Positions 1,414 through 6,698 of a stretch of DNA of 42,350 nucleotides are shown here, piece after piece; the first letter of the stretch is position 1; each line of letters starts with the position of its first letter. The translations under genes were made by a program, and so were the position numbers. The notes beneath the pieces were generated by a model. That model was not told the origin of the DNA, searched no databases, and saw only the letters and a program-made list of their open reading frames with translations. Origin of the DNA: an uncultured Armatimonadota bacterium (GTDB taxonomy: Bacteria; Armatimonadota; Fimbriimonadia; Fimbriimonadales; Fimbriimonadaceae); contig CAIUHP010000044.1 of assembly GCA_903899015.1 (NCBI GenBank), positions 1 to 42,350 on the forward strand. The letters run 5' to 3'.

Positions 1414-3450
1414 GTGCTTCTCTTCCCATTCTTGAGTTCTGTCGCAACTTGCCGTCTTGCCGAACATGATCTCATTTTTGTGTCTCGCTCGGACAACGAT
1501 CTTTACCGAACATTCTCTCGATCGAAACGAGTTTCCTTGTCTGGCCGGTTAGACATAGCTCTCAAGGACGCCAAAGTAGGAAGCGGGATTCTCATCTTAG
1601 ATGGCGAACCGTGGACGTCAGCCTCCCAAGAGATCGCGGTGAAGAAGGACCTAAAGGTTTATCGTGAGTTGCCGGTTGACGGTCCCAAATCAAAGTCAAT
1701 CGAATGGGAGCGTGTTTTTGTCGCTTCCAACCAGTTTGGAGACGCACTCAAGTTGGGCCGGATATTGTCGGTTGGACGTCAGCCCATGGCGATAAGCTCT
1801 GCTCCCAACCCTTTGCTCTCGATCGGAAGAATTGCTGGCTTCGATTCCCTCGCATTCGGTCCTCCCAATCATTCCGACCCGTTGCTGTGGCTAGAAAACG
1901 ACCGAACCATGTTGTCCGCCGTGCCGATCAGTCGCTTCTCAACCGCTCGCTATGCTCCGGCTAAGGCCTGGAAACCGGTGATTCAACACATCCTGACTTG
2001 GTTAGGGGCTCCCAGCCTCGTGAGCCAGTTTGTATGGAAACCAGAAGTGCGTCCAATGTTCGGCCCCAACGAGGACTTGCCGAGCGATGTTGAAAAGAGA
2101 ACGGCTCGCGCGGGAGCAAAGTGGTTTACGCAATCCCACCTGATCCTGACTCACGACGATGTTGAAACCTACATGAAGGCTGATCAATGGCCGGACCGAA
2201 TAGGTCCGCAGCCGATAGGTAACTCGGACGGCATCAACGGAATCATCGAAGGGTATTCCTCAGCCATCGACGCAAAAGGCAATCAACCGGTTCGATACTA
2301 TCGACGAGCAGACTGCAATGCAGAGTCCGCAATGGCGCTTACCCTGGCCGGAGGTGAAAGGGAGCGGAAGATTGGCGAGAACCTTGGCGATTACATTGCC
2401 TTCAAGAGCAAAGTGCTCCATAACGACCCTACGAAGCAGACCTTCGGGCTCGTGGGTTGGAACGACCAAGAAAACAACCGAGGCAATTTCTATGGAGACG
2501 ACAATGCGCGGTATATCCTGGGGCTCATCGGAACCGCAGGAGCGTTAAAGACTCGCAAATACGACGATCAAATACTGGCCTGCATCCTCGCCAATTTCCG
2601 AACAACAGGAACAAATGGTTTTCGGGGCGACAATTTAAGTGAGTCCGATATTGAAAGGCTCGGATGGAAACATTTCTTTGATGCTCCGACCATTAATATG
2701 GCCCCCCATTTCGAGGCCTACAATTGGGCGCTTTACCTATGGGCCTATCAAAAAACCGGATATTCACCTCTGTTGACCCGTTCCATAAAAGCGATTACTC
2801 GATGTATGGACTCGGGTGAAAACGCTTGGACGTGGACCAACGGAATCCAGCAGGAAAGAGCCCGAATGCTGCTACCGCTTTCGTGGTTGGTACGCGTCGA
2901 AAATACATCCTTGCATCGTAAGTGGCTAACCGCTGTGGCGCATGAAGTTATTCGCCACCAGGACGCCTGCGGTGCGATTCGCGAGGAAATAGGAGATTTA
3001 TCACACGGAATCGCTGGCCCTCCTCGCTCGAATGAGGCATTCGGCACCGCCGAAACTCCGCTCATTCAAAACAACGGCGATCCGGTTGCGGACATGCTCT
3101 ACACGTCGAACTTCGCGTTTCTGGGCTTACATGAGGCAGCCAGCTCAACCCACGATCCGGCGATTGTTGAGGCTGAAAACAAGCTCGCCAAGTTCCTGTG
3201 TCGGATCCAAGTGCGCTCAGAGACTCACCCCGAATTGAACGGCGCGTGGTTCAGGGCATTTGACTTCGGAGACTGGGATTATTGGGCAAGCAATGCCGAT
3301 CTTGGTTGGGGCACCTGGAGCATCGAAACCGGATGGAGTGTTTCGTGGATTACTTCCCTGCTTGCGATCCGACAGCGCCACATTTCCTTTTGGGACATTC
3401 ACCCAACATTTGCACCGAACCTTGAACTCGTGAAGAAAATGTTGCCCTAA
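1414..3450 (+). CDS. secreted six-hairpin (alpha/alpha) glycosidase-like protein
   Basis: I cannot assign an exact family to this 678-residue protein. The first 220 or so residues look like a beta-rich and Rossmann-like region (GILILDGEPW near residue 50). The remainder is rich in Trp, Tyr, Asn and Asp, with helix-turn repeats such as GNFYGDDNARYILGLIG, PHFEAYNWALYLWAYQ and LGWGTWSIETGWSVSW. That pattern is typical of an (alpha/alpha)6 toroid as found in glycoside hydrolases and lyases. The GTG at 1414 is the only conventional start downstream of the in-frame TGA at 1354. The hydrophobic leader (LLFPFLSSVATC) suggests export, but it lacks the usual basic N-terminus and no good ribosome-binding site is visible. 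It probably acts on a carbohydrate outside the cytoplasm, which is inference. Confidence 0.72.
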   Translation: MLLFPFLSSVATCRLAEHDLIFVSRSDNDLYRTFSRSKRVSLSGRLDIALKDAKVGSGILILDGEPWTSASQEIAVKKDLKVYRELPVDGPKSKSIEWERVFVASNQFGDALKLGRILSVGRQPMAISSAPNPLLSIGRIAGFDSLAFGPPNHSDPLLWLENDRTMLSAVPISRFSTARYAPAKAWKPVIQHILTWLGAPSLVSQFVWKPEVRPMFGPNEDLPSDVEKRTARAGAKWFTQSHLILTHDDVETYMKADQWPDRIGPQPIGNSDGINGIIEGYSSAIDAKGNQPVRYYRRADCNAESAMALTLAGGERERKIGENLGDYIAFKSKVLHNDPTKQTFGLVGWNDQENNRGNFYGDDNARYILGLIGTAGALKTRKYDDQILACILANFRTTGTNGFRGDNLSESDIERLGWKHFFDAPTINMAPHFEAYNWALYLWAYQKTGYSPLLTRSIKAITRCMDSGENAWTWTNGIQQERARMLLPLSWLVRVENTSLHRKWLTAVAHEVIRHQDACGAIREEIGDLSHGIAGPPRSNEAFGTAETPLIQNNGDPVADMLYTSNFAFLGLHEAASSTHDPAIVEAENKLAKFLCRIQVRSETHPELNGAWFRAFDFGDWDYWASNADLGWGTWSIETGWSVSWITSLLAIRQRHISFWDIHPTFAPNLELVKKMLP

Positions 3451-3507: not shown

Positions 3508-3876
3508 TCAAGATTTAACGGTGATTGGGCTCAGATAGAGGGTCGTATCACCTTCCGCCCCTGATGTGAGGCCGGAAATGTCCACGAAGATAATTTGCTT
3601 GAGTTGACTAGGGTCAAATTTCGCCTTCTTATCAGGCGAATCGTCCGAAATGTTCAAGGTTGAGAGTGGTATCGAGTAAGCCTTCGACTCAGCCTTACCT
3701 GGCAATTCGATTGTTGTGTTGAACTTGGCCCCATTAATCTGCTCAAGCTGAACCACGAGTTGGCATGAGCGAGTACAGCCGGCTTCAAAAACAAGGTTCT
3801 TCTTCCCTACCATCTCTGGAGCTTGCAACGCATGGACGATGCTTGCCACATGTCCGCCACTGATGTGATAGTCCAC
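3508..3876 (-). CDS. C-terminal half of CBM-like protein, separated by an in-frame TAG
   Basis: This 122-residue stretch from a GTG codon lies in exactly the same reading frame as the gene ending at 3883. Only TAG (3885-3883) and the two codons CTG and AAG lie between them. It reads like the rest of a jelly-roll carbohydrate-binding domain: KVDYHISGG, then CQLVVQLEQINGAKF, SQLKQIIFVDIS and LYLSPITVKS. These parallel LDYNYKVGTG, TIMVTVQEKDGGRYG, DQINGVAVIDVD and LYLSDVQFLE in the preceding domain. The fragment has no signal peptide and lacks the first strands of its domain, so it is unlikely to be an independent gene. It is most likely the cut-off end of a two-domain protein, through mutation, sequencing error or possibly readthrough. 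Confidence 0.6.
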   Translation of the reverse strand: MDYHISGGHVASIVHALQAPEMVGKKNLVFEAGCTRSCQLVVQLEQINGAKFNTTIELPGKAESKAYSIPLSTLNISDDSPDKKAKFDPSQLKQIIFVDISGLTSGAEGDTTLYLSPITVKS

Positions 3877-3882
3877 CTTCAG

Positions 3883-4659
3883 CTATTTGCCCGCGAAAGG
3901 AGAATCGGATGCGACCGTCATTTCGTTGACTCCAAGCCCAATCCAAGATTGGTGGGGTCGAGCAAAGGTATCGATCTTATAGCCATCGGAACCGGTGGCA
4001 AAGGCATTCGGCAATTTAGCTTCTAGGAACTGAACATCTGAAAGATAGAGATGGCGCGTTCCTGGGGTTATCCCAAGCATTTCTGAAAAAGTTGCATTCT
4101 GCGCGATAAAAGAGTCGACATCGATAACGGCAACTCCATTAATTTGGTCGGGATCTAGCTTGCCGTCTGGATCTTTAGGCGCATCCGCTTCCGTTGAGGG
4201 TGAAAAATCGGTAAGCGAGAGTTGAACTTCTTGCCATTGGTTTTTTGGCACTCGACAATTGGCACCATATCGCCCTCCATCCTTTTCCTGTACCGTCACC
4301 ATAATCGTCGTCGCATGGTCGCTCTGAACCCAAAAATGAAGGGAGTTCATGCCAGCAAGCTTTCCTGGTGTTACCGAAAGTGCCGTCACGCTTACTTCGC
4401 CAGTGCCGACTTTGTAATTGTAATCAAGGCTTCCTGGACCATTCTTGAGGTGCGCTTTGTCATAAGTCGCTTCTACTTTTGCTCCCGCACCGGCAATCTG
4501 CATGACTGCCCATCCTTCGACTCCGCGGTCAAAAGTGTTGTGAAGTAATGCGGGTTCCTGAAGAGCTGAACCTGCCAAAAGGCCAAGAATAATCGAAGTA
4601 ACCATGACTACAACGAATAAGACCCTGGAAGAACCCGCAAGGTTGCGATCCAGGGTCAT
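3883..4659 (-). CDS. exported carbohydrate-binding-like protein, ends at a premature TAG
   Basis: The product is 258 residues. A basic N-terminus (MTLDRNLAGSSR) is followed by a long hydrophobic segment at about residues 13-33, either a signal peptide or an anchor. A jelly-roll domain resembling carbohydrate-binding modules follows, with NTFDRGVEGW near residue 42, then GPGSLDYNYKV and a C-terminal LYLSDVQFLE near 208. A second copy begins with RPHQSWIGLGVNEM but stops at TAG, a few residues into its second strand. The missing remainder is encoded in the same frame downstream (3508-3876). The gene starts nine bases after the M61 peptidase stop, so the two are probably cotranscribed. No enzymatic residues are recognisable. 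Confidence 0.75.
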   Translation of the reverse strand: MTLDRNLAGSSRVLFVVVMVTSIILGLLAGSALQEPALLHNTFDRGVEGWAVMQIAGAGAKVEATYDKAHLKNGPGSLDYNYKVGTGEVSVTALSVTPGKLAGMNSLHFWVQSDHATTIMVTVQEKDGGRYGANCRVPKNQWQEVQLSLTDFSPSTEADAPKDPDGKLDPDQINGVAVIDVDSFIAQNATFSEMLGITPGTRHLYLSDVQFLEAKLPNAFATGSDGYKIDTFARPHQSWIGLGVNEMTVASDSPFAGK

Positions 4660-4668
4660 GCAAGGCGA

Positions 4669-6540
4669 CTAGTTTCGAGCTTTCTTCTGCGCCAACCAAG
4701 CCTGGCGAAGTTTCAGCTGACCTTCGGTAGCAGTGGACTCGGGAGCGATTGAATAGATGTCTCTCGTTAGCGTCGCAGGCGAGATTTCAACATCCATCTT
4801 CGCGTCACCGCGCATGATCGTCAGCTTGATTGGGGTGCCAGCAAGAACGTCCTTTGTCACCTTGGTCATATCCGCCGCCATCGCTCGCACGTTGTCTCCT
4901 GCGAGTGCTTTCCCGTTCACGGCCAGGATCTTGTCTCCGACCTGTACCTTGCCCTCAGCTGAAGCACGCACCGCATTTACCACCAATGCGGTAGCTCCAG
5001 GAAAACCGCCGAAACCGATACCCAAATCGACATACTGCTCGGGCTTAACAACGACCTTCAAACCAACTTTCGCGAGTGTGTCTTCCATTGCCATGCCATC
5101 GGCTTTCATGACAATGCGATCGTAAACGGCACCCATTTCGGGTCCGCCCATTCGAATGGTTTGCCTTCGGATCTCGTCTTCTTCAAAACCAGGCTTATCG
5201 TTGCGGCATAACTCCCACAGGGCGTGTTCCACGTCGTCCAGCGACTTCTTCCCGTTGGTTGCGGATCGAATCTCAATATCAAGGCACAAGCCTGCCAGCC
5301 ATCCTAGGTTGTAGTAGCTCATCAGATAGCCATTACTGTTGCCACGACCGCCGTTGGCCTCATCAACTCTCAAACTCGCTTCATTCGGACCTACTAGCTT
5401 GTGCGCAGGATTGTTTCGTATGATTTGAAGATTCGACGCAATCGTGGAGAAGTAAGACGCATCGTCATTGCCTCCATAGCGATGTGGAAGTGTAAACGCG
5501 TAATAGTCGGTCACGCCTTCAAGCCACCACAGCGCGCCTGTTTCAGGCAACTTCGTATAGTCGAATGGACCAAGCGGCTTCGATCGAATCCTCTTCACAT
5601 TCCAAAGGTGGAAAAACTCGTGAGCTAGAACGCTCTTGGCTCGTGGTCCAACACCCGCAGCTAACGATATCTGAGTGCTGCTTAGATGCTCGAGCCCGCC
5701 TGCTCCATCAGGAGAATCCATGACTGCAAAGTGCCAGACATATTTATCGTAAGGAGCCGAAGCACCGAAGAAATCGGTTTCGGTATCGCTTACAAATTTA
5801 CAGGCATTCAGGAGATTGACTCGATCAACCTTGGTTCGAGCCGCACCGCGCATCACGATCCAATGGGTCTTACCTCGGCTTTCATAATGGTCGACGGTAA
5901 GTTCTCCGGTGCTAACCGGATTATCGGCAAGCACGTCGTATGTCTTCGCGGTAAAGACATTGGAGCCTGGTTTCGTTTCAGTGAGGCCAAGGTAGGGAGT
6001 CCAACCTTGAGGCAGTTGAAGTTCGAGAACACATTTCTCTAGGCGATGGCCCGTTTCGTAGAGATAGGTTGTTGGACCACCCCAATGAACGGCTCCATCA
6101 ACCGGCTTTTGGGCGATATCGTATTCGACGGTGAGCGATTTTGTCGGCTTTACCTTCCAAGTGCACACCGGAATCTCGAATACCTTGTCGGCTAGTCCAT
6201 CACGATAGGTCTTCTTGATCGAGACGATTTCTTGAGCGATATCCAGAGGATTTCCATCCGCATCGAGCGCTTTTAAATTCTTCACTGCCTTGAAGTTTTC
6301 ATTCAGGAAATACGCTCCCGGTGCCCAATTTGGCATTTGGAACTGACTGCCTCGGTTGGTACCTGTCAGATGCATCGAGATATGGAGCATTCCTGCGTCC
6401 GGCAGGACAGAAACTTTGTAATGAACATCCGCGAACGCAAGTGGCACGAGCGTTAACGCAGCAGCGGCCATTGCGAGAGATCGGTACAAAGCAACACCAC
6501 GAGTGACGTTCGCACGAGATAAGCCAGTAGATTCCATCAT
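4669..6540 (-). CDS. M61 family (glycyl aminopeptidase-like) zinc peptidase with PDZ domain
   Basis: This is a secreted or periplasmic metallopeptidase of family M61. Counting from the GTG at 6582, the zinc site is HEFFHLWNVKRIR at about residues 321-333 (HExxH), and the third ligand is probably Glu355 in WWLEGVTDYY. The N-terminal half has the M61 beta domain (FQMPNWAPGAYFL). A PDZ domain at about 520-600 contains VNAVRASAEGKVQVGDKILAVNGKAL. I chose the ATG at 6540 because GGTGA lies seven bases upstream. A longer GTG start at 6582 would add 14 residues. A signal peptide follows (RGVALYRSLAMAAAALTLV, cleavage near AFA-DV). It is followed after nine bases by the CBM-like gene, so the two probably form an operon. 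Confidence 0.9.
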   Translation of the reverse strand: MMESTGLSRANVTRGVALYRSLAMAAAALTLVPLAFADVHYKVSVLPDAGMLHISMHLTGTNRGSQFQMPNWAPGAYFLNENFKAVKNLKALDADGNPLDIAQEIVSIKKTYRDGLADKVFEIPVCTWKVKPTKSLTVEYDIAQKPVDGAVHWGGPTTYLYETGHRLEKCVLELQLPQGWTPYLGLTETKPGSNVFTAKTYDVLADNPVSTGELTVDHYESRGKTHWIVMRGAARTKVDRVNLLNACKFVSDTETDFFGASAPYDKYVWHFAVMDSPDGAGGLEHLSSTQISLAAGVGPRAKSVLAHEFFHLWNVKRIRSKPLGPFDYTKLPETGALWWLEGVTDYYAFTLPHRYGGNDDASYFSTIASNLQIIRNNPAHKLVGPNEASLRVDEANGGRGNSNGYLMSYYNLGWLAGLCLDIEIRSATNGKKSLDDVEHALWELCRNDKPGFEEDEIRRQTIRMGGPEMGAVYDRIVMKADGMAMEDTLAKVGLKVVVKPEQYVDLGIGFGGFPGATALVVNAVRASAEGKVQVGDKILAVNGKALAGDNVRAMAADMTKVTKDVLAGTPIKLTIMRGDAKMDVEISPATLTRDIYSIAPESTATEGQLKLRQAWLAQKKARN

Positions 6541-6698
6541 AGAGTCTTCACCAGGCACTATCTTGGCACCTCTTGTCGGCACCGTGTCCTAAATAGGATT
6601 AAGTCTGGCAATTACCTCGGCACGATAATTTGAATTTATTGTGTTCAAGAGCCTGAACAGACTCGTCCTGAGGGAGCAAGCGGTGATATTATCCGAAC

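Follow-up and report, generated by a model that had tools for sequence, protein, structure and literature searches.

The window, the whole stretch of DNA that we analysed, is an entire contig of 42,350 bases from a draft genome of 4.94 Mb in 119 contigs. On its minus strand, a gene at positions 4659–3508 is split by an in-frame TAG at 3885–3883, which is codon 259. The frame runs from an ATG at 4659 through 258 codons to the TAG, passes CTG, AAG and a GTG at 3876, and stays open for 124 codons after the TAG until a TGA at 3510–3508. The preliminary description had reported two ORFs in one frame with only TAG, CTG and AAG between them, and both its coordinates and its codons proved correct. Under a simple base-composition model, the chance of 123 codons staying open is approximately 0.002. 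The locus and its immediate neighbours comprise the following features, given with the evidence for each.

1414–3450, plus strand: converging neighbour of 678 amino acids, also found beside the nearest orthologue (synteny)
3508–3510, minus strand: TGA, terminator of the full frame (frame)
3511–3882, minus strand: post-stop tail of 124 codons, open, gapless against the nearest orthologue and presumably untranslated or rarely translated (frame, alignment, branch test)
3511–3993, minus strand: domain 2, residues 223–383, homologous to domain 1 and broken at codon 259 (alignments, orthologue model)
3874–3876, minus strand: GTG taken as the start of the second ORF, with no Shine–Dalgarno-like sequence seen by eye at a usable distance (ORF list, sequence)
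3883–3885, minus strand: in-frame TAG, codon 259 (frame, class-wide homologue search)
3886–4659, minus strand: pre-stop part of 258 codons, with an N terminus that looks signal-like by eye, domain 1 and a domain 2 stub (frame, AlphaFold model)
4021–4560, minus strand: domain 1, residues 34–213, with a CBM11-like beta-sandwich fold (VIA-align to 1v0a; Pfam CIA30 and CBM_4_9 below cut-off)
4669–6582, minus strand: upstream neighbour, an M61 glycyl aminopeptidase, also found beside the nearest orthologue (Pfam, synteny)

The order of genes is the same around the nearest orthologue: the 678-amino-acid gene, the target, the M61 peptidase and a 128-amino-acid ORF, the last with a weak DUF896 match below the cut-off. 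The 678-amino-acid ORF had no Pfam match at E 1; it is 64% identical to its syntenic counterpart in the nearest relative. The M61 peptidase ORF and the target lie in the same frame, parted by the TAG of the peptidase and three codons (4659–4671, minus strand), and in the nearest orthologue the peptidase and the target homologue likewise share one frame with a stop between them. Searches of the genome with the pre-stop protein and with the CIA30 profile each hit a single place, the target itself, giving no second copy of the gene, and no similar plasmid DNA was found.

The stop falls within the second of two homologous domains

The preliminary description had proposed two tandem domains of the same fold, and this is borne out by BLASTP, which aligned domain 1 with the part after the stop at E = 2e-7 (21 of 105 columns identical). 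As had been claimed, the alignment pairs LDYNYKVGTG with the LKVDYHISGG stretch. The two domain ends that had also been matched, LYLSDVQFLE and LYLSPITVKS, fall outside the BLASTP alignment, and both are strands in the orthologue model. For the intact orthologue, two beta-sandwich domains were predicted with a mean pLDDT of 82.1. The column of the stop corresponds to residue 261 of this orthologue, the first residue of the domain 2 strand 261–268, so that a product ending there would lack most of domain 2. In an AlphaFold model of the truncated product, the domain 1 block had a pLDDT of 82–96 and the domain 2 stub 57–71, and the blocks of the intact orthologue that match the stub had 74–83. 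Domain 1 is thus predicted still to fold after truncation.

The nearest fold to the predicted model of domain 1 was CBM11 (1v0a; VIA-align Z 16.1, rmsd 2.4, 154 residues, 17% identity). In a Pfam listing to E 1, domain 1 matched CIA30 (E 0.00047; 20.7 bits against a cut-off of 24 bits) and, also below the cut-off, CBM_4_9; the tail alone matched no Pfam family. From the likeness of fold, with Pfam matches only below the cut-off, we infer that the protein may bind carbohydrate. Its signal-like N terminus, judged by eye, suggests that it is probably secreted.

Homologues are open where this gene is interrupted

A profile search across 113 genomes of the class, including the genome of the window, found a homologue in 25, of which only the window's own is interrupted, by its single TAG. 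The preliminary description had named beforehand, as a finding that would speak against an interruption, homologues that naturally end at the same site; all 24 others are open, and the proposal of an interrupted gene stands. With the pre-stop part as the query, homologues were found in 22 of 61 genomes (own included). The stop column held a sense codon in all 21 aligned homologues, encoding glycine in 17, alanine in 3 and tryptophan in 1, the last being the nearest (60% identity). The residue replaced by the stop had been proposed to be serine or tryptophan. Tryptophan agrees with that one nearest homologue of the 21, serine occurs in none, and most homologues carry glycine or alanine instead. 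The part after the stop matched domain 2 in five other genomes of the same genus. The scan of contigs depended on the query: a single protein recovered no relative and an alignment recovered nine.

The alignment with the nearest orthologue crosses the stop without a change of frame, at 55% identity over 365 columns. Identity is 63.9% in domain 1, 63.9% in the 36 pre-stop columns of domain 2 and 45.2% in the 124 columns after the stop. Neither part of the gene had a match at E 0.001 in 14 of 20 genomes of the genus; the gene is therefore not shared by the whole genus, and is probably dispensable.

Change after the stop appears accelerated in this lineage

We compared evolution on the two sides of the stop in eight homologues (LG+G4, fixed topology). 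The terminal branch leading to the window sequence was 0.269 before the stop and 0.563 after it, and that of its sister was 0.273 and 0.336, with total tree lengths of 5.29 and 5.21, respectively. In all 100 bootstrap pairs the window sequence took a larger share of the tree after the stop than before it, as the sister did in 71 of 100; when columns were permuted, a contrast as large arose in 1 of 500 trials for the window sequence and in 137 of 500 for the sister. Other comparisons weigh the other way. In sliding segments, the share of the window sequence fluctuated along the protein, being 0.020–0.089 in the eleven that end by residue 295, two of which straddle the stop, and 0.095–0.123 in the last four. 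The window sequence departed from otherwise invariant tail columns 4 times, hardly more than the others (3, 2, 0, 3 and 1 times). Relative-rate counts for the tail with four outgroups gave uncorrected P values of 0.405, 0.007, 0.265 and 0.845, one of the four being significant. Taken together, these comparisons of sequences provide moderate evidence of relaxed constraint on the tail in this lineage.

At the codon level, the window and sister sequences differ at positions 1, 2 and 3 in 52, 36 and 79 of the 124 post-stop codons, and in 51, 33 and 119 of the 180 codons of domain 1. Positions 1 and 2 differ more often in the tail, and the third-position excess of coding sequence is kept; on any reading, this excess mostly predates the stop. 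Synonymous sites were saturated in most comparisons, with dS undefined or 1.7–3.3.

The 124 codons of the tail contain no second stop and no indel relative to the nearest orthologue, as would also be seen after a recent event. If the approximately 37 excess replacements estimated from branch lengths had all occurred after the stop arose, one would expect 1.5–2.0 additional stops, and the chance of seeing none would be 13–22%. The clean tail thus argues for a fairly recent stop, for a relaxation older than the stop, or for some constraint or product that persists.

A truncating mutation and its alternatives

Of the three readings offered by the preliminary description (a nonsense mutation, an error, and readthrough or recoding), the first is the best supported. 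We consider it likely that a nonsense mutation has truncated a probably secreted, tandem CBM11-like protein, which is the simplest account of the locus. The mutation would have arisen during the descent of this Fimbriimonas-like bacterium, and ribosomes would terminate at the TAG through RF1. The product released would have 258 residues, with domain 1 complete and domain 2 reduced to an incomplete stub, and may be secreted and stable. Constraint on domain 2 would have been relaxed in this lineage, either through the stop or before it. On our best reading, the lost domain 2 is dispensable. The locus would then be unremarkable as an instance of a nonsense mutation removing a domain; it also illustrates how ORF calling lists two genes for what is a single gene in relatives.

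One alternative is that the organism has a sense codon here and that the consensus is wrong, through an error of sequencing or assembly or through a mixture of strains. The tail is otherwise open and free of indels, as an error would leave it, the assembly is a draft of 119 contigs, and a single genome represents the species in our comparison. However, an error would not be expected to come with faster evolution of the tail in this one lineage, an acceleration that the relative-rate counts support weakly; such lineage-specific acceleration speaks for a stop that is real and a tail under relaxed constraint. The other genes compared also speak against an error. When eight window genes were aligned, each on its own strand, to 40 kb of the relative, the target alone had a stop within the ORF; two further stops in this comparison sit just upstream of start codons. 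The comparison covered the genes with an orthologue in those stretches, which the other main ORFs of the window lacked. We therefore regard an error as unlikely.

If the TAG were read through, whether leakily or in a programmed way, a little full-length, two-domain protein would be made, keeping the tail open under lowered constraint. The open tail without indels is consistent with this, as is the account in the part of PMC7918605 on which we draw, in which in-frame stops are widespread in bacterial genes and dN/dS is below 1; the same part describes such stops as mostly short-lived, with fairly high dN/dS, and takes most of them to lack functional recoding. Against readthrough, the stop is not conserved across species, being absent from every other genome with a homologue. 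The RNA downstream of it is not unusually stable (z = +0.62; 148 of 200 shuffled sequences are as stable), and no readthrough-stimulating structure was seen there. One tRNA was the only Rfam family to reach the gathering score anywhere in the window. A search with the tRNA family, with anticodons assigned by ARAGORN, found no CUA anticodon among at least 44 tRNA genes, having scored 150 of 280 first-look candidates, such that a very odd tRNA could escape it. Overall, readthrough appears distinctly improbable. In a specific form of the idea, to which we attach little probability, the TAG would be a leaky stop peculiar to this lineage and would determine how much of the secreted binding protein has one domain and how much has two, with weak selection keeping the tail open. 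The phylum Armatimonadota has few described species, and the locus, if read through, would be a natural case of amber readthrough in it.

Separate translation of the tail by reinitiation at GTG 3876, which would make this a split gene, is very improbable. The GTG lies two codons past the stop, but we saw by eye no Shine–Dalgarno-like sequence upstream of it that ribosomes could use, on which ground we rejected reinitiation, and its product would have neither the signal-like N terminus nor the opening strands of domain 2.

Reassignment of TAG to an amino acid across the genome would explain why the codon aligns with sense codons in every aligned homologue, but it is negligibly probable and was rejected, given an RF1 above the cut-off (474.8 bits against 423.25), the lack of any tRNA gene with a CUA anticodon among the at least 44 found and the ordinary use of TAG, which ends 14 of 32 selected main ORFs of the window (TAA 9 and TGA 9, the target being counted by its final TGA). 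The preliminary description had suggested looking for an amber suppressor tRNA or a change of release factor, and neither came to light, the former among the tRNA genes recovered. The RF1 of this genome has its GGQ and P-A-T motifs, and a second release factor has GGQ and SPF, as RF2 does. RF1 matches were present in all 20 genomes of the genus (own included), 19 of them over the cut-off. In all 20, the flank of the GGQ loop reads AGGQHMQKNE, whose sequence is not that of Escherichia coli RF1, GGQHVN. The RF1 match of one genome of the genus was flagged with an internal TGA; the frame around its GGQ has stops only before the start and at the end, and the flag probably stems from where the boundary of the match was drawn.

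Comparison with known systems

Domain 1 shares its fold with the CBM11 module of Lic26A-Cel5E (1v0a). It differs from this module in sequence (17% identity) and in setting, as the target is a tandem without a catalytic domain, and Pfam lists only CIA30 and CBM_4_9 for it, both below the cut-off. A second likeness is to the sandwich of CIA30 (Complex I intermediate-associated protein 30), the weak Pfam match. Domain 1 superposed on the complex I assembly intermediates 7zkq and 7zkp with Z scores of 14.1 and 13.4, respectively, although identity was 10–11% and the CIA30 score lies under the 24-bit cut-off. The matched chains are presumably the CIA30 factor in both entries, NDUFAF1 being named only in the title of 7zkp. 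For the intact two-domain model, the top Foldseek match was the CBM22 tandem of Paenibacillus Xyn10C (4xup; E 3.1e-10), but superposition of both domains together is poor (TM 0.28, rmsd 15.5).

The interruption itself can be compared with the in-frame stops of bacterial genes described in PMC7918605. The part of that study on which we draw centres on stops common to at least two species, whereas the stop reported here is known from one genome. In other respects the cases described there resemble the target, with one in-frame stop, orthologues that are open and a tail that is still recognisable.
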